Shown piece after piece: positions 1,890 to 12,225 of a DNA stretch of 14,754 nt (positions are counted from its first letter, which is position 1; the number at the start of each line of letters is the position of its first letter). The DNA is from Dactylosporangium aurantiacum (GTDB lineage Bacteria > Actinomycetota > Actinomycetes > Mycobacteriales > Micromonosporaceae), in assembly GCF_000716715.1 (NCBI RefSeq), contig NZ_JNYJ01000101.1:1-14754 (forward strand), in the 5' to 3' direction. The notes below the pieces were generated by a model. The model saw only the letters and a list, made by a program, of their open reading frames with translations. It did not search any database and had not been told where the DNA came from. The position numbers and the translations under genes were made by a program.

Positions 1890-2417
1890 ATGTTCCTGCA
1901 GAGTTGGTCGGATCTGCTCCGGGTCGCCGTCGTCGGGGTCGTGGTCTATCCCGGGCTGATCCTGGTGCTGCGCTTGTCTGGCAAGCGGATGTTGGCGAAG
2001 ATGAACGCCTTCGACCTGATCGTCACGGTTGCGTTGGGGTCGACCCTGGCGACCATTCTGGTGTCGAAGGACGTATCACTGGCCGAGAGGATGGCCGCCC
2101 TTGTGCTGCTGGTCGTCCTGCAGTTGGCCGCAACGTGGCTGTCGATGCGCTCCCGCCGGATCCGGGTAGTGCTGAAGTCCGAGCCGACCCTGTTGCTGCG
2201 CGATCGGCGTTTGCTGGACGATGCGTTCCGGTCGCAGCGGGTCACCGACGGGGAGGTGCGGCAGGCGATCCGGTCGCAGGGTAGCGGTGGAATGGAACAG
2301 GTCGCCGCGGTGGTCCTAGAGACCGACGGTACCCTCAGCGTGATCCAGGAAGGTCAGGCCGACCGGTTGACCGCGTTGCGCGGCGTCGCCGGCGCGGCGG
2401 TACCGCTGGAGCGTTGA
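1890..2417 (+). CDS. DUF421 (YetF-like) membrane protein
   Basis: A 175-residue protein with the DUF421 layout. Three transmembrane helices lie near residues 9-27, 40-57 and 67-83, and a soluble C-terminal domain follows. Characteristic stretches are RLSGKRMLAKMNAFDLIVTV and ALGSTLATIL, then RIRVVLKSEPTLLLRDRRLL and the EVRQAIRSQG segment. The biochemical role of the family is not settled; members are membrane proteins often seen near stress genes. ATG at 1890 gives the expected N-terminus; the upstream ribosome site is weak. The stop at 2415-2417 is directly followed by the ancestral stop of the convergent DUF4440-like gene. Confidence 0.9.
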   Translation: MFLQSWSDLLRVAVVGVVVYPGLILVLRLSGKRMLAKMNAFDLIVTVALGSTLATILVSKDVSLAERMAALVLLVVLQLAATWLSMRSRRIRVVLKSEPTLLLRDRRLLDDAFRSQRVTDGEVRQAIRSQGSGGMEQVAAVVLETDGTLSVIQEGQADRLTALRGVAGAAVPLER

Positions 2418-6707: not shown

Positions 6708-7436
6708 TCAGATCTGGCTGAGCAGGAACGCGGTGATGAACCCGAGACAGGTACTGAGCCCGACGACACTGCCGGCGTGCTCGTACGCCTCGGGCATCAT
6801 CGTGTCGGCGAGCATGGTGAGGATCGCCCCGGCCGCGAACGCCTGCGTGACGGCGACGACCTGCGGCGGTGCGCCGCCCAGCGCGGCGTAGCCGATCGCC
6901 GCCGCGGCCGCCGAGGCGACCGCGACGCCGGTCCACAGGCCGAGGATCCAGCGGGTGGAGTGGCCGGCACGGCGTAGACCGGTGGCGGCGGACAGCGACT
7001 CCGGCACGTTGGACAGGAACACCGCGGCAACGACGGCGACGCCGACGGAGCCGCCGCCGAGCAGCGACACACCGATCGCCACCGACTCCGGGATGCCGTC
7101 GAGCAGCGAGCCGAGCACGATCGCGCCCGCCGAGCCGGCGGCCTGCTGCCCGCCGGAGCGTTTGCGGTGCTGCCCGCCGCGCCGGTCGATGATCCAGTCG
7201 CCGATGAAGAACGCGAACGCGCCGCCGACAAGACCGGCGAGGACCGGCCAGCCGCCGCCGCGTTCGAACGCCTCCTCGGTCAGTTCGAACGCTAAAGCGC
7301 TGATCAGCACCCCGGCGCCGAACGCCATGACCAGCCCGATGCCGCGGGCGGCGGAGTGCCAGACCAGGCCGATCACGGCGCCGACGATGAGCGCGAGACC
7401 GCCGACGAAGCCCCACCAAGCCGCTTCCCACATCAT
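6708..7436 (-). CDS. ZIP family metal transporter
   Basis: A 242-residue membrane protein with about eight hydrophobic helices, the usual ZIP size, likely importing zinc or another divalent metal across the cell membrane. Key signatures are LLDGIPESVAIGVSL (D113-G-I-P-E117) and FLSNVPESLSAATG (N143-V-P-E146), the paired metal-site helices 4 and 5. A His-containing loop with RKRSGGQ lies between helices 3 and 4. The His residues usual in HNxPEG and HExPHE are replaced by Asp and Ser-Asn here. Two adjacent ATGs (7436, 7433) follow GGGAG; either may start. It is the last gene of the minus-strand operon, 16 bp after the NADH dehydrogenase gene. Zinc supply to the zinc-dependent dehydrogenase is a plausible link but is inferred. 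Confidence 0.88.
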   Translation of the reverse strand: MMWEAAWWGFVGGLALIVGAVIGLVWHSAARGIGLVMAFGAGVLISALAFELTEEAFERGGGWPVLAGLVGGAFAFFIGDWIIDRRGGQHRKRSGGQQAAGSAGAIVLGSLLDGIPESVAIGVSLLGGGSVGVAVVAAVFLSNVPESLSAATGLRRAGHSTRWILGLWTGVAVASAAAAAIGYAALGGAPPQVVAVTQAFAAGAILTMLADTMMPEAYEHAGSVVGLSTCLGFITAFLLSQI

Positions 7437-7452
7437 GATCTCCCGCGATGGT

Positions 7453-8760
7453 CTATGCGGGACGGGCGGCAGCCGGCCGTACCGTCCGGGTGTCCAGGAT
7501 GAGCTGTTGCTGGCGGCGCCCGCTGCCCAGGGTCCAGGCCCAGTTGGCGAGGACGCCGAGGCGGTTGGGCCAGCCGGTGAGGAAGGCCAGGTGGACGCCG
7601 GCCCAGGCGGCCTTGCCGAGCGGGCCGTGCAGGTGCAGGCCGCGGACGTCGGCGACCGCGTCGAACGGGCTGATGGTGGCCATGGTGCCCAGGTCCAGGT
7701 AGCGGAACAGGCCCGGATGCGGACCGCGGCCGAGCCGGTGGCTGATGACCTTGGCGACGTACCGGCCCTGCTGCAGCGCGGGCTCGGCGATGCCGGGCAG
7801 ATCGTGGACGTTGGCGAGGTCGCCGATCGCGAAGATCTCCGGGTGGCCGGGCACCGTGCAGTCGGGCCGAACCTTGATGCGGCCCTTGTGGTCTCTGGAG
7901 GCGCCGGCGTCCTCCGCGAGCTGGGCGGTGAGCGGCACCGGGGTGACGCCGGCGGCCCAGATCACGGTGGGCGTCGCGAGGCGCTGCGGATCGCCGCCGT
8001 GCGCGGACTGTAGGGTGATGCCGTGCTCGTCGATGTCGGCGGCGCTGTACCCGAGGCGGACGTCGACGCCGAGGTCGCGGAGCCGCCGGTGGGCGTGCCG
8101 GCGTAGCGGGTCCGGGAACGGGGCGAGCACGGCGTCGCCGTGCTCGGTCAGCACGATGCGCAGATGTGCGGGGTCCAGGTCGTGGAACTGGCCGCGCAGG
8201 GTGCGGCGGGCCAGGGCGGCGAGCTGCCCGGCGAGCTCGACGCCGGTGGGGCCGCCGCCGACGATGGCGAAGGTCAGCCAGCGGCGGCGGGCCTGTTCGT
8301 CGCGGCTCGCGGCGGCCGTCTCGAACGCGTGCAGCAGCCGGTCGCGCAGCTCGACCGCCTGCCGCAGCGTCTTCATCCCCGCCGCGACCGCCGCCCACTG
8401 GTCGTGGCCGAAGTAGTTGTCGGTCGCCCCGGCGGCCAGGACCAGGTGGTCGTAGCCGAGCCGCTGGGCGGTGCCGTCCGCGGCGGTCACGGTCACGGTC
8501 TGCGCGTGCGGGTTGACGGCGGTCGCCTCGCCGAGCAGGACGCGGGTGTTGCGCTGCTCGGCGAGGATCCGCCGCAGTGGCGGGGCGATGTCACCGGCCG
8601 GCAGCAGACCCGTGGCGACCTGGTACAGCAGCGGCCGGAACAGGTGATGGTTGGCGCGGTCGACGAGGACCACGTCGGCGGGCGCGCGGCGCAGCCCGCG
8701 GGCGGCCCGCAGCCCGGCGAACCCGCCACCGATGATGACGACCCGCTGGCGCGCGGTCAC
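7453..8760 (-). CDS. Type II NADH dehydrogenase-like FAD-dependent oxidoreductase
   Basis: This 435-residue flavoprotein is of the NDH-2 type, which passes electrons from NADH to membrane quinone without pumping protons. It has an FAD-binding RVVIIGGGFAGL at residues 6-17, HHLFRPLLYQVATG at 38-51, an NADH-binding FAIVGGGPTGVELAG at 164-178, IFAIGDLAN at 309-317 and the quinone-side ALQQGRYVA motif at 328-336. A C-terminal amphipathic, Trp-rich segment (FLTGWPNRLGVLANWAWTLG) should anchor it to the inner membrane face. GTG at 8760 is chosen because it gives the normal N-terminus and overlaps the TGA of the glucose dehydrogenase gene (GTGA), indicating coupled translation. Confidence 0.9.
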   Translation of the reverse strand: MTARQRVVIIGGGFAGLRAARGLRRAPADVVLVDRANHHLFRPLLYQVATGLLPAGDIAPPLRRILAEQRNTRVLLGEATAVNPHAQTVTVTAADGTAQRLGYDHLVLAAGATDNYFGHDQWAAVAAGMKTLRQAVELRDRLLHAFETAAASRDEQARRRWLTFAIVGGGPTGVELAGQLAALARRTLRGQFHDLDPAHLRIVLTEHGDAVLAPFPDPLRRHAHRRLRDLGVDVRLGYSAADIDEHGITLQSAHGGDPQRLATPTVIWAAGVTPVPLTAQLAEDAGASRDHKGRIKVRPDCTVPGHPEIFAIGDLANVHDLPGIAEPALQQGRYVAKVISHRLGRGPHPGLFRYLDLGTMATISPFDAVADVRGLHLHGPLGKAAWAGVHLAFLTGWPNRLGVLANWAWTLGSGRRQQQLILDTRTVRPAAARPA

Positions 8761-9818
8761 CGGTCGCTCCCATCGAGGGTGATGACGACCTTCACGTCGT
8801 CGCCGGACGCGGTGAACGCGTCCGCTGCCTGCTCCAGCGGCACCCTGCGGGTGATCAGTCGGCCGAGCCAGTCCAAGTCGGCCTTGGCGAGAGCGTCGGC
8901 CGCGGCGGTGTAATGGCTGAGGTTCGCGTTGACGGAGCCGATGACGACGTCGTTCTCCAGCACGATCTCCCGGTTGAGCCCGCCGCTGTCCACGGCGAGC
9001 CGATGCCCGGGCGAGGACACGCCGGTAAGACACACGATGCCGTAGGCGGCGGTGCCCGACAGCGCGCCGAACACCACCGGTCCGGCGCCGGTGCACTCGA
9101 TGACGACGTCGGGTCGCACGCCGGACATGACCTCGCCGATCGGTTCGTGGTGGTACATCGCGCCGAGGTCGTGCACGAGGCCGGGTTTCGGGCCGGCGGT
9201 GACCTGGTCGAGCACGTGCACGTCGAGGCCGCGCTGGGCGCTGAGGAGTGCGGCGAGCAGCCCGATCGGTCCGGCGCCGGTGACGAGCACGGTCCGCGGC
9301 GCGAACCAGGCGCGGGTGCCGACCTTCTCGATCTCGTCCCAGGCCTTCGCGACCACGCTCGCCGGCTCCAAGAGGATGCCGACGTGGGCGAGGCGCGGGT
9401 CGAGTTTTACCGCGTAGTCCGTCTCGACGGTCCAGGATTCGCTGGCATACCCGTCGAGCTGTTTGATGCCCCGTTCGGTGTAGCGGCCGTTGCGGCACAT
9501 GTCGAACTGTCCGTGCGCGCAGGCGCCGCACGGCACCGGGTCCGGGCGACGGACCACGCCGACGACGAGGTCGCCGAGCGTGAAGCCGCTGCCGGGCGGC
9601 GCGTGCCGGACCCGGCCGAGGGATTCGTGGCCGATGACGAGCCGCTCCCGGTCCGGCGGCGCCCATCCGTACAGGCCGGCGGCGATCTCCTTGTCGGTGC
9701 CGCACACACCGACGGTGAGGCCGTCGACGAGCAGCTCGTCGTCGCCGGGCCGGGGGTCCGGCACGTCGGTGACGGCCAGGGAGCGGGCCTGTTGCGGGAT
9801 GACGGTCAGGGCACGCAT
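8757..9818 (-). CDS. Zinc-dependent glucose 1-dehydrogenase (medium-chain dehydrogenase family)
   Basis: A 353-residue MDR-family enzyme resembling archaeal-type glucose dehydrogenase, which oxidises glucose to gluconolactone with NAD(P)+. Catalytic zinc residues appear as C39 in GVCGTDKEI, H64-E65 in VIGHESLGRV and E151 in LLEPASVVAKAW. The structural zinc lobe is PCGACAHGQFDMC (C97, C100, C108). The coenzyme fold has GAGPIG at 181-186, followed by HVLDQVT. The GTDKEI and GHESLG segments favour glucose dehydrogenase over general alcohol dehydrogenase. ATG 9818 has GGAGGTGAG upstream, lying inside the end of the GH15 gene; the genes overlap by 13 bp. NAD+ or NADP+ preference cannot be read with certainty. 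Confidence 0.85.
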   Translation of the reverse strand: MRALTVIPQQARSLAVTDVPDPRPGDDELLVDGLTVGVCGTDKEIAAGLYGWAPPDRERLVIGHESLGRVRHAPPGSGFTLGDLVVGVVRRPDPVPCGACAHGQFDMCRNGRYTERGIKQLDGYASESWTVETDYAVKLDPRLAHVGILLEPASVVAKAWDEIEKVGTRAWFAPRTVLVTGAGPIGLLAALLSAQRGLDVHVLDQVTAGPKPGLVHDLGAMYHHEPIGEVMSGVRPDVVIECTGAGPVVFGALSGTAAYGIVCLTGVSSPGHRLAVDSGGLNREIVLENDVVIGSVNANLSHYTAAADALAKADLDWLGRLITRRVPLEQAADAFTASGDDVKVVITLDGSDR

Positions 9819-11608
9819 GCGGTGCTCACCTCCGACGAGGGCGCGGTGGATGACAGATGACGGGCGGAGTTGACCAGCCCGACGTGGCTGAACGCCTGCG
9901 GGGTGTTGCCCAGCTGCCGGCCGGTGGCCGGGTCGTACTCCTCGGCGAGCAGGCCGAGGTCGTTGCGCAGGCCGAGCAGCCGCTCGAACAGCCGCTCCGC
10001 CTCGTCGTGCCGGCCGATGCCGGCCAGCGCGTCGGCGAGCCAGAAGCTGCAGGTGACGAACGCGCCTTCGGTGCCGGGCAGCCCGTCGACGAGGTCGCCG
10101 GCCTGCGGGCGGTACCGCAGCAGGAACCCGTCGACGCACAGCTCCCGGCGGACCGCGTCGACGGTGCCGGCGACCCGCGGATCGGACCACGGCAGGAACC
10201 CGTACCGGGGGAGCAGCAGCAATGCCGCGTCGAGTCCTTGCGAGCCGTAGAACTGGGTGAACGTGCCGCGGTCCGGGTCGAAACCGCGCTCGCACACGTC
10301 GCGGTGGATCCAGTCGCGGACGGCGCGCCACCGCTGCACCGGCCCGTCCAGGCCGGAGTCCAGCACCGCCCGGACGGCGCGGTCCAGGCCGACCCACGCC
10401 ATGACCTTGGAGTGCACGAACTGCCGCCGGTCGCCGCGGACCTCCCACAGCCCGTTGTCCGGTTCGGCCCAGTGGCCCTCGAGGTAGTCCAGCAGCGCGC
10501 GCTGCAGGTCCCAGGCGTCCTCGTCCGGGGCGATACCGGCCTGACGGGCCAGGTGCAGTCCGTCGAGGGTCTCGCCCCACACGTCCAGCTGGAACTGCCC
10601 GGAGGCGGCGTTGCCGATCCGTACCGGCGCGGCGCCCTCGTAACCGGGCAGCCAGTTCAGGGTCAGCTCGGTGAGTCGTCGGGTGCCGTCGATGCCGTAC
10701 ATGATCTGCAGGTCGGCGGGGTCGCCGGCGGCGGCGCGCAGCAGCCATTCCCGCCACGCCCGCGCCTCGGCGACGAACCCGGTGCCGAGCAGCGCCTGCA
10801 GAGTGAGCGTGGCGTCGCGCAGCCAGCAGAACCGGTAGTCCCAGTTGCGTGGACCGCCCCACTGCTCCGGCAGCGATGTGGTGGCGGCCGCGACGATCCC
10901 GCCGGTCGGCGCGTAGGTGAGCGCCTTGAGTGTCACCAGTGACCGGCGGACGGCCTCCTGCCAACCGCCGGTGTACCGGAAACGGCTCATCCAGTGCGAC
11001 CAGAACGCCTCGGTGTCGGCGAGTGCCTGCACCGCGTCGGCGGGGCGGGGCTTCGGTTCGTGCGACGGCCGGTACGTGAGTACGAACGGCACCCGCTCAC
11101 CGGCGGCGACCTCGAAGTCGGCGTAGGTGGTGAAGTCCTCGCCACGCAGCGGCACCGGCGTGTGCAGCCAGGCCGCGTCCGGTCCGGCGACCGCGGCGAG
11201 CTGCCCGTCGTGGTGGCGCACCCACGGCACGATCCGGCCGTAGTCGAACCGCAGCCGCAACGCCATGCGCACCGGCACCCGGCCGGTGACGCCCTCGACG
11301 ACCCGGACCACGTCGGCAGCCTCGCCGCGCGGCGGCATGCAGTCCACCACCCGCACGGTGCCGTCCGGCGTGTCCCACTCCGTCTCCAGGATCAGGGAGT
11401 CACCGCGGTAGCGGCGGCGCGTCGCCGGCCCACCGGCGGCCGGGGCGAGCCGCCAGTACCCGTGCCGGTCGTCGCCGAGCAACGCGGCGAAGCAGGCCGG
11501 TGCGTCGAAGCGGGGCAGGCACAACCAGTCGATGGAGCCGTCCCGGCCGACCAGCGCCGCCGTGTGCAGGTCGCCGAGCAGCCCGTAGTCCTCGATCCGC
11601 GACACCAC
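9806..11608 (-). CDS. Glycoside hydrolase family 15 protein (glucoamylase or trehalase type)
   Basis: This 600-residue protein has no signal peptide, so it acts in the cytoplasm. The N-terminal beta domain opens with SRIEDYGLLGDLHTAALVGR then SIDWLCLPRFD. The (alpha/alpha)6 catalytic barrel carries NWDYRFCWLRDATLTL (255-270), DNGLWEVRG (384-392) and LLAEEYDPATGRQLGNTPQA (553-572). E389 and E556/E557 are the likely acid and base by family position. Members release glucose from alpha-glucans, or split trehalose in mycobacteria; the substrate cannot be told here. GTG codons at 11608 and 11605 follow GAGGAGG and give the family N-terminus; upstream ATGs lie in the promoter region. It is the first gene of the operon and divergent from a MarR regulator. 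Confidence 0.9.
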   Translation of the reverse strand: MVSRIEDYGLLGDLHTAALVGRDGSIDWLCLPRFDAPACFAALLGDDRHGYWRLAPAAGGPATRRRYRGDSLILETEWDTPDGTVRVVDCMPPRGEAADVVRVVEGVTGRVPVRMALRLRFDYGRIVPWVRHHDGQLAAVAGPDAAWLHTPVPLRGEDFTTYADFEVAAGERVPFVLTYRPSHEPKPRPADAVQALADTEAFWSHWMSRFRYTGGWQEAVRRSLVTLKALTYAPTGGIVAAATTSLPEQWGGPRNWDYRFCWLRDATLTLQALLGTGFVAEARAWREWLLRAAAGDPADLQIMYGIDGTRRLTELTLNWLPGYEGAAPVRIGNAASGQFQLDVWGETLDGLHLARQAGIAPDEDAWDLQRALLDYLEGHWAEPDNGLWEVRGDRRQFVHSKVMAWVGLDRAVRAVLDSGLDGPVQRWRAVRDWIHRDVCERGFDPDRGTFTQFYGSQGLDAALLLLPRYGFLPWSDPRVAGTVDAVRRELCVDGFLLRYRPQAGDLVDGLPGTEGAFVTCSFWLADALAGIGRHDEAERLFERLLGLRNDLGLLAEEYDPATGRQLGNTPQAFSHVGLVNSARHLSSTAPSSEVSTACVP

Positions 11609-11651
11609 CGCCGCCCTCCTCGCTCGCGAGCCGATTGATGTCCGCATACCC

Positions 11652-11679
11652 GTGCATCGTGCATCCATGCGTTGTGCAT
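11652..11679. promoter_or_regulatory. GTGCAT repeat cluster between the GH15 and MarR genes
   Basis: GTGCAT occurs three times (11652-11657, 11659-11664, 11674-11679), and GCAT-CC-ATGC (11661-11670) forms a short dyad within it. The cluster sits midway in the 101-bp divergent intergenic region and is the best candidate for binding of the adjacent MarR protein. No clear -10 box was found. Confidence 0.45.
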
Positions 11680-11709
11680 GAAATCTGGTTCGCGGGGCAT
11701 GTTGGGCTT

Positions 11710-12225
11710 GTGACCGCACCCGACGCGGCGCCCGCCGGCGTCGACACCGACCTCGTCGAGGCGTTCCTGACCGCCAGCCGGGTCCTCGTCGCCGTCGCCG
11801 TGCGGTCCCTCAGCTCCTACGACGCGGACATCAGCCTCCCGCAGCACCGCGCCCTGGTGCTGCTCGCCGCCCACGGCCCGCAACGCATGACCGACCTCGC
11901 CGAGTTGCTCGACGTCAACAGCTCCACCGCCACGCGCCACTGCGACCGGCTGCAGCAGCGCGGCCTCGTCCAGCGCGCCCCCGCCGTCGACGACCGCCGC
12001 GCGGTGCAGGTGTCACTCACCCCCGCCGGCCGCCGGCTGGTCCGGCGCGTCACCGACGCCCGCCGCCGCGAGATCAGCCGAATCCTGAACGCCATGCCGG
12101 CGAGCGAACGACCGTCGCTGCTGGCCGCCCTGCAGTCGTTCGCCGGCGCCGCCGGTGAGGTCCCGGACCAGCACTGGACGCTCGGCTGGGGCACCGACCG
12201 GTCACTGGCAAACCTCGACCCGTAA
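11710..12225 (+). CDS. MarR family transcriptional regulator
   Basis: A 171-residue winged-helix regulator. Residues 12-40 form the dimer helix region. LPQHRALVLLAAHG (43-56) leads into the recognition part RMTDLAELLDVNSSTATRHC (59-78) with DRLQQRGLVQR. The wing is DDRRAVQVSLTPAG. C-terminal helices close the dimer interface. GTG 11710 is taken as start because it directly precedes the conserved region and leaves a normal divergent promoter gap; the ribosome site is weak. Divergence from the GH15-led operon suggests it controls that operon and itself, probably through the GTGCAT cluster. Its ligand is unknown. Confidence 0.88.
   Translation: MTAPDAAPAGVDTDLVEAFLTASRVLVAVAVRSLSSYDADISLPQHRALVLLAAHGPQRMTDLAELLDVNSSTATRHCDRLQQRGLVQRAPAVDDRRAVQVSLTPAGRRLVRRVTDARRREISRILNAMPASERPSLLAALQSFAGAAGEVPDQHWTLGWGTDRSLANLDP

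Follow-up and report, generated by a model that had tools for sequence, protein, structure and literature searches.

A minus-strand run of GH15, glucose dehydrogenase, NDH-2 and ZIP genes in Dactylosporangium aurantiacum, a putative glucose-respiration cassette

The closest counterparts of the proteins analyzed here include the archaeal zinc MDR glucose dehydrogenases 2b5w and 2cd9/2cdb (which we take to be of Haloferax and Sulfolobus origin), the type II NADH dehydrogenases (NDH-2) 9mqy and 4nwz, and BbZIP of Bordetella. Family GH15 includes the trehalase of Mycobacterium smegmatis (Carroll 2007, taken from citing passages of PMC10969515 and PMC12446779) and the isomaltose glucohydrolase of Kribbella flavida (5z3a), which is named in a passage of PMC12446779. 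Inverting GH15 enzymes yield beta-D-glucose, according to a passage of PMC12446779. These component families are known, whereas their combination had no match in a search of open-licence literature at the level of titles and abstracts.

Layout and predicted chemistry of the operon

The window, that is, the whole analyzed stretch of 14,754 nucleotides, comes from a D. aurantiacum strain with a genome of 11.4 Mb; among the relatives listed, the nearest named relatives of its glucose dehydrogenase (GDH) are from Dactylosporangium. In the minus-strand run from 11605 to 6708, neighboring genes overlap or almost touch. The gene coordinates confirm the sequence-only reading of four head-to-tail genes, with overlaps of 13 bp and 4 bp, a 16-bp gap and a divergent MarR gene, beyond which the family scan of the window found an MscS-like gene. 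The features are:

11710..12225 (likely; scanned as 11629-12225), plus strand: divergent MarR-family regulator (PF01047)
11646..11670, minus strand: promoter-like element GCATG-N14-GGGTAT upstream of GH15, fitting the published S. coelicolor SigB consensus
9806..11605, minus strand: GH15 alpha-glucosidase, predicted to release glucose, with a trehalase-like N domain (start at 11605 or 11608)
8757..9818, minus strand: zinc MDR glucose 1-dehydrogenase (GDH), predicted NAD+-specific (PF16912, 230 bits; nearest PDB sequence 2b5w)
7453..8760, minus strand: NDH-2 (PF07992; 384 bits to 9mqy; E206 at the NADH site)
6708..7436, minus strand: ZIP-family membrane protein of the 'LDGIPES' subfamily

We consider it probable, with some reservation, that this locus encodes a cytoplasmic glucose-respiration cassette controlled by MarR and a stress sigma factor, with ZIP as an accessory. 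The sequence itself gives the order and families of the genes, the NAD-type site of GDH, the promoter motif and the recurrence of the cassette; we infer location, substrates, electron flow, regulation and metal as follows. The GH15 enzyme would hydrolyze an alpha-glucoside (trehalose, isomaltose or a short maltodextrin) to beta-D-glucose, the zinc GDH would convert glucose and NAD+ to gluconolactone and NADH, and the membrane NDH-2, itself pumping no protons, would oxidize NADH and hand the electrons on to menaquinone. Recovery of gluconate would rely on a gluconokinase from another part of the genome, where a profile search detected one (194.6 bits). The operon would be controlled by the divergent MarR protein and probably also by a SigB/SigF-type sigma factor, and the ZIP protein, a probable importer of divalent metal whose gene is probably part of the same transcript, would be accessory. 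The first three genes recur as a module that was put together more than once, and its simplest reading is release of glucose, NAD-linked oxidation and reduction of quinone.

The GH15 protein scored above the PF00723 cut-off and has the GH15 fold, its nearest solved structures being other GH15 enzymes; neither phmmer with this protein nor the GH15 profile yielded a match among PDB sequences. It falls below the NCBIfam trehalase equivalog cut-offs TreH1 and TreH2 (377.1 vs 820 and 330.4 vs 1000 bits), models that are archaeal, and it may still be a bacterial trehalase. The NDH-2 protein aligns with the non-electrogenic NADH:ubiquinone reductase 9mqy over 421 of 435 residues and has an acidic residue, E206, in its NADH site. 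GDH is well above the Pfam cut-offs for Glu_dehyd_C (230.2 vs 34.9 bits) and ADH_N (49.0 vs 23.5 bits), and the catalytic zinc ligands C39, H64 and E65 are retained in all 93 filled rows of a 95-row GDH alignment. Asp204, where the second strand of the Rossmann site ends, is present in all 95 rows; this acidic residue is presumably the NAD+-type determinant. An NAD-type cofactor, as implied by the sequence-only reading, is accordingly what this conserved residue predicts, NADH usable by NDH-2 would be expected as the product, and a GDH specific for NADP+ is not favored.

One gene cluster lies directly 3' of GDH in six Streptomyces loci, and its single scanned member (L092:9138-9584) is a GntK-type gluconokinase that scored above the cut-off (145.8 vs 113.75 bits). 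These neighbors lend support to glucose as the GDH substrate and, together with Asp204, make conversion of glucose to NADH plus gluconate the likely reaction. At E <= 0.001, no TIGR01313-type gluconokinase was detected in two cassette-carrying genomes, G503 and G443. Six mycobacterial loci (L062, L063, L070, L079, L094 and L109) have a GDH-GH15 pair next to a MarR gene in divergent orientation. In these loci, the pair is followed by genes for a TPP enzyme, an enolase-superfamily enzyme resembling acid-sugar dehydratases and a large FAD/FeS oxidase (representatives scanned), possibly a gluconate-degrading route.

Both the Streptomyces and the mycobacterial neighborhoods would fit GDH making gluconate or another sugar acid for a carbon pathway, through gluconokinase or an acid-sugar dehydratase, with NDH-2 merely rebalancing NADH and energy gain not being the purpose. 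We find this somewhat unlikely, given that the called genes of the window include none for gluconokinase or a dehydratase route and that the Actinoplanes-group cassettes have NDH-2 as the partner, although the carbon-pathway and respiration readings overlap.

Recurrence of the cassette and origins of its NDH-2

GDH relatives came from 80 named actinobacterial records, the top-ranking 80 among 558 confirmed stretches, and from further genomes. The resulting comparison set comprises 95 distinct wide loci after removal of two duplicates: the 80 named records, the window and 14 hand-picked loci. Several of the latter were picked because they already showed the cassette, which inflates the share of NDH-2, and the loci are kin to each other, so that the counts lack independence.

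GH15 is the immediate co-oriented neighbor of GDH in 45 of the 95 loci, or 46 with L190, where GH15 is split; it precedes GDH in 22 loci and follows it in 24, with gaps of -13 to +79 bp, and one of the 46 (L085) has a distant GH15 (~40% identity). Split GH15 genes in two frames were observed at L190:9291-11126 and L215, in otherwise intact cassettes, and could reflect sequencing error or decay. NDH-2 lies beside GDH in 10 of the 95 loci. In the 80 named records alone, GH15 adjoins GDH in 37 and NDH-2 in four (L065 and L106 being represented by L187 and L191). GH15, NDH-2 and gluconokinase are all absent beside GDH in 43 of the 95 loci.

Two less biased samples disagree. In family- and order-level relatives (29 loci with 1.5-kb flanks), GH15 was found beside GDH in five loci and NDH-2 in none, whereas in the genus of G503, presumably of the Actinoplanes group, GDH was detected at E <= 1e-140 in 21 of 67 genomes (24 matches), and 14 of the 20 fetched loci had GH15 beside it and 10 had NDH-2. 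The distribution of the cassette is thus uneven, with some genera rich in it. Of six other genomes from the genus of the window, one has this GDH. Across 108 wide loci, partly hand-picked, NDH-2 is concentrated where GH15 is present (14/52 loci vs 2/56 without GH15). The proposed linkage of glucose release, glucose oxidation and quinone reduction therefore holds insofar as the genes are linked and recur outside this strain, but in shuffled orders and with NDH-2 at a minority of loci.

The cassette NDH-2 proteins are of two types. Type A (the window, L157 and L076 of Cellulomonas septica) is encoded 3' of GH15-GDH, and type B (L112, L187-L191 and L193; seven loci), ~35% identical to the window protein, 5' of GDH. 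In a tree of 40 NDH-2 proteins built by a quick method, a long branch with 100% support separates the two types, although the program warns that two long branches, L122 and the type B side, join there. Two non-cassette paralogues of the genus, L124 and L125, are placed with type B, and a separate NDH-2, ~50% identical to that of the window, exists in the window's genus. The best PDB-sequence matches of L187, the sole type B protein compared, are NDH-2-like enzymes. It is thus supported, by sequence comparison, that NDH-2 joined GH15-GDH from two lineages and on opposite sides. To account for the three type A loci, the GDH tree requires three gains or losses.

Eight of the 12 nearest NDH-2 relatives (P0122-P0133) were assigned to the same contig as a near GDH by equal sequence size; three of these also match in strain name, and the size match of the other five is indirect evidence. 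A ninth, that of C. septica, adjoins GDH by direct reading (L076). A Kribbella GDH/NDH-2 pair (P0068/P0150) shares strain and source-sequence size. Three Dactylosporangium strains have close GDHs (83-86%), and the contigs of these GDHs are the source of none of the 120 NDH-2 relatives listed; none of the six other genomes of the window's genus had an NDH-2 more than 49% identical. Close matches to the window NDH-2 numbered one, the window itself, in 296 genomes of the class (E <= 1e-135), two, the window and G503, in 300 genomes of the family (E <= 1e-132), and one in 67 genomes of the genus of G503 (E <= 1e-132). At these thresholds, which hide type B, the NDH-2 lineage of the window is rare.

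The intact order GH15-GDH-NDH-2-ZIP was not found outside the window among the 108 wide loci. All four families occur in two Actinoplanes-group genomes, in the orders NDH-2, GDH, GH15, ZIP (L190) and ZIP, cation-efflux gene, NDH-2, GDH, GH15 (L212). Elsewhere in the window's own genome (L158; G000 contig 16, about 95903-96299), a GH15 piece directly abuts a ZIP piece, matching window positions 10511-10683 (86.7%) and 6716-6941 (88.1%), respectively. This remnant would be left if a second operon copy had lost everything between a point in GH15 and a point in ZIP; it could alternatively have come from a related strain by transfer, or from contamination (tabulated at 5.85%). An assembly chimera is an unlikely source of the four-gene order, because an apparent second, deleted copy with 87-88% identity and two abutting pieces is present in the same genome. 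Hence, the expectation that this order would be found across actinobacteria did not hold for the intact order, which among the loci compared was found in this genome only, and was borne out to the extent of a compatible deletion remnant and two rearranged clusters.

Some neighbors are of other kinds. A YetF-like (DUF421) membrane protein is encoded at window 1890-2417, and its cluster also neighbors four other GDH loci. A formate-dehydrogenase-like molybdopterin enzyme is encoded near the cassette in two Actinoplanes-group genomes (L157:9067-11562 and L189:12179-14653).

We reject chance clustering of GH15, GDH and NDH-2 in view of their recurrence in reshuffled orders and of the two NDH-2 lineages. 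A narrower alternative, which we judge unlikely, is that GH15-GDH is a true functional pair and that NDH-2 and ZIP are unrelated genes placed by chance in a plastic, stress-related region. It would account for the lower frequency of NDH-2 beside GDH compared with GH15, for the absence of NDH-2 from the sample of 29 relatives and for the unique four-gene order, as well as for the ion exchangers, STAS and YetF-like genes in cassette neighborhoods (125 of 139 neighbor proteins scanned, no background rate measured). Recruitment of two distant NDH-2 lineages on opposite sides of the pair argues for the three-gene module instead, as do the co-occurrence of NDH-2 with GH15 in the partly hand-picked set and the gene overlaps and short gaps.

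Promoter-like element and metal transporters

The element GCATG-N14-GGGTAT (window 11670-11646), located between GH15 and MarR, matches the SigB/SigF-type consensus GNNTN-N14-16-GGGTAY, given for S. coelicolor SigB in a passage of PMC5402319, with mapped examples given in passages of PMC8346170. A wider pattern, drawn up after the site was seen, matched the window once and matched none of 200 shuffled versions. Similar elements occur 39-40 bp before GH15 in L157, L185 and L186, where a MarR gene is likewise divergent from a GH15-first cassette. ATGCAC repeats overlap the window element and could be a candidate MarR site. In L157:3050-4114 and L186:12339-13403, a Na/Ca-exchanger-type gene on the same strand overlaps the MarR gene by four bases, possibly forming a MarR operon.

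With a spacing of our own, chosen after the sites were seen, the motif was found before 11 of 22 GH15-first, 5 of 18 GDH-GH15, 2 of 7 NDH-2-first and 11 of 48 GDH-alone loci, compared with 43 of 1048 other genes. With the published spacing and any last base, the counts were 9/22 for GH15-first, 18/66 for GDH-first and 49/1048 for other genes, and with the full published consensus, 3/22, 5/66 and 25/1048. The GDH-alone matches indicate that the motif is associated with GDH genes in general and not just with the full cassette. SigF promoters of M. smegmatis are similar, and the SigF regulon is induced on inhibition of respiration, according to passages of PMC7693655. A SigB/SigF-type stress sigma factor is a candidate regulator of the operon.

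The ZIP protein has the ZIP fold by fold comparison but scored below the curated Pfam Zip cut-off (27 vs 35.1 bits) and the ZupT equivalog cut-off (31.4 vs 252 bits); phmmer with this protein found no match among PDB sequences, unlike the ZIP profile, which did. In what we take to be the BbZIP ligand numbering, His177, Asn178, Gln207 and Asp208 are replaced by Asp (D113 for H177), Gly, Ser and Asn, and the Glu240 position is lost, so that most of the second metal site is missing. Matches to this ZIP at E <= 1e-30 were found in 74 of 296 genomes of the class, and in the 29 fetched non-window loci no GDH, GH15 or NDH-2 gene lay within 1.5 kb. Equal source sizes linking ZIP to GDH relatives (1653 and 1778, too short for both genes, and 1958, from different sources) were not counted, as such sizes can coincide by chance.

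The ZIPs of L190 and L212 share 81% identity with one another and 53% with the window ZIP. Two NDH-2 cassettes, L188 (11884-13116) and L218 (2588-3820), have an Nramp gene two genes after GH15; the two are 97% identical and hence close to one event. When the 108 loci are searched for ZIP or Nramp up to 6 kb from GDH, one or the other is present at 5 of the 16 loci that have NDH-2, at none of the 38 that have GH15 only and at 2 of the 54 that have neither gene (5/16 vs 2/92, Fisher p = 0.0007, kinship ignored). The metal transporter appears to be a looser add-on to the cassette.

NDH-2 is not known to require zinc, and Nramp is atypical as a zinc importer. That the transporter supplies the zinc of GDH, making the operon self-sufficient, is very improbable: the retained catalytic ligands, the clear ZIP fold and the enrichment near NDH-2 cassettes would fit it, but this claim of the sequence-only reading is weakened by the missing BbZIP histidine, by a second site that is mostly lost, by the 29 ZIP loci devoid of cassette genes, by the nearly identical Nramp alternatives and by an enrichment that tracks NDH-2, not GDH.

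Implications and comparison with known systems

More broadly, we tentatively suggest that Actinobacteria repeatedly built the same stress-controlled module, which burns a reserve of internal alpha-glucoside by NAD-linked oxidation of glucose straight into the quinone pool, each lineage adding to an ancient GH15-GDH pair its own NDH-2, of two origins, and at times its own divalent-metal importer, ZIP or Nramp. If so, the cassette would feed storage sugar into the respiratory chain by a short, non-phosphorylating route, one that bypasses glucose kinase as well as glycolysis and that may operate under stress. A physiological role, with testable substrates, would also follow for many actinobacterial GH15 enzymes and genes annotated as 'threonine dehydrogenase-like' or 'glucose 1-dehydrogenase'.

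Compared with the described enzymes, the window GH15 shares its family with the M. smegmatis trehalase, as far as the passages citing that enzyme go, and also has the Pfam trehalase-like N-terminal domain, whereas the 371-residue chain of 5z3a aligns only to its C-terminal part, from residue 211. The NDH-2 enzymes 9mqy and 4nwz are similar to the window protein, 9mqy over nearly its whole length; the window gene differs by lying in a sugar-oxidation operon. The archaeal enzymes 2b5w and 2cd9/2cdb have in common with the window GDH the family, the catalytic ligands and the Glu_dehyd_C domain. Where these have a Gly-Arg-Arg or Asn-Arg-Arg stretch, the window enzyme has Asp204, a replacement that predicts use of NAD+ rather than NADP+, and, unlike its archaeal counterparts, it is encoded beside GH15 and NDH-2.
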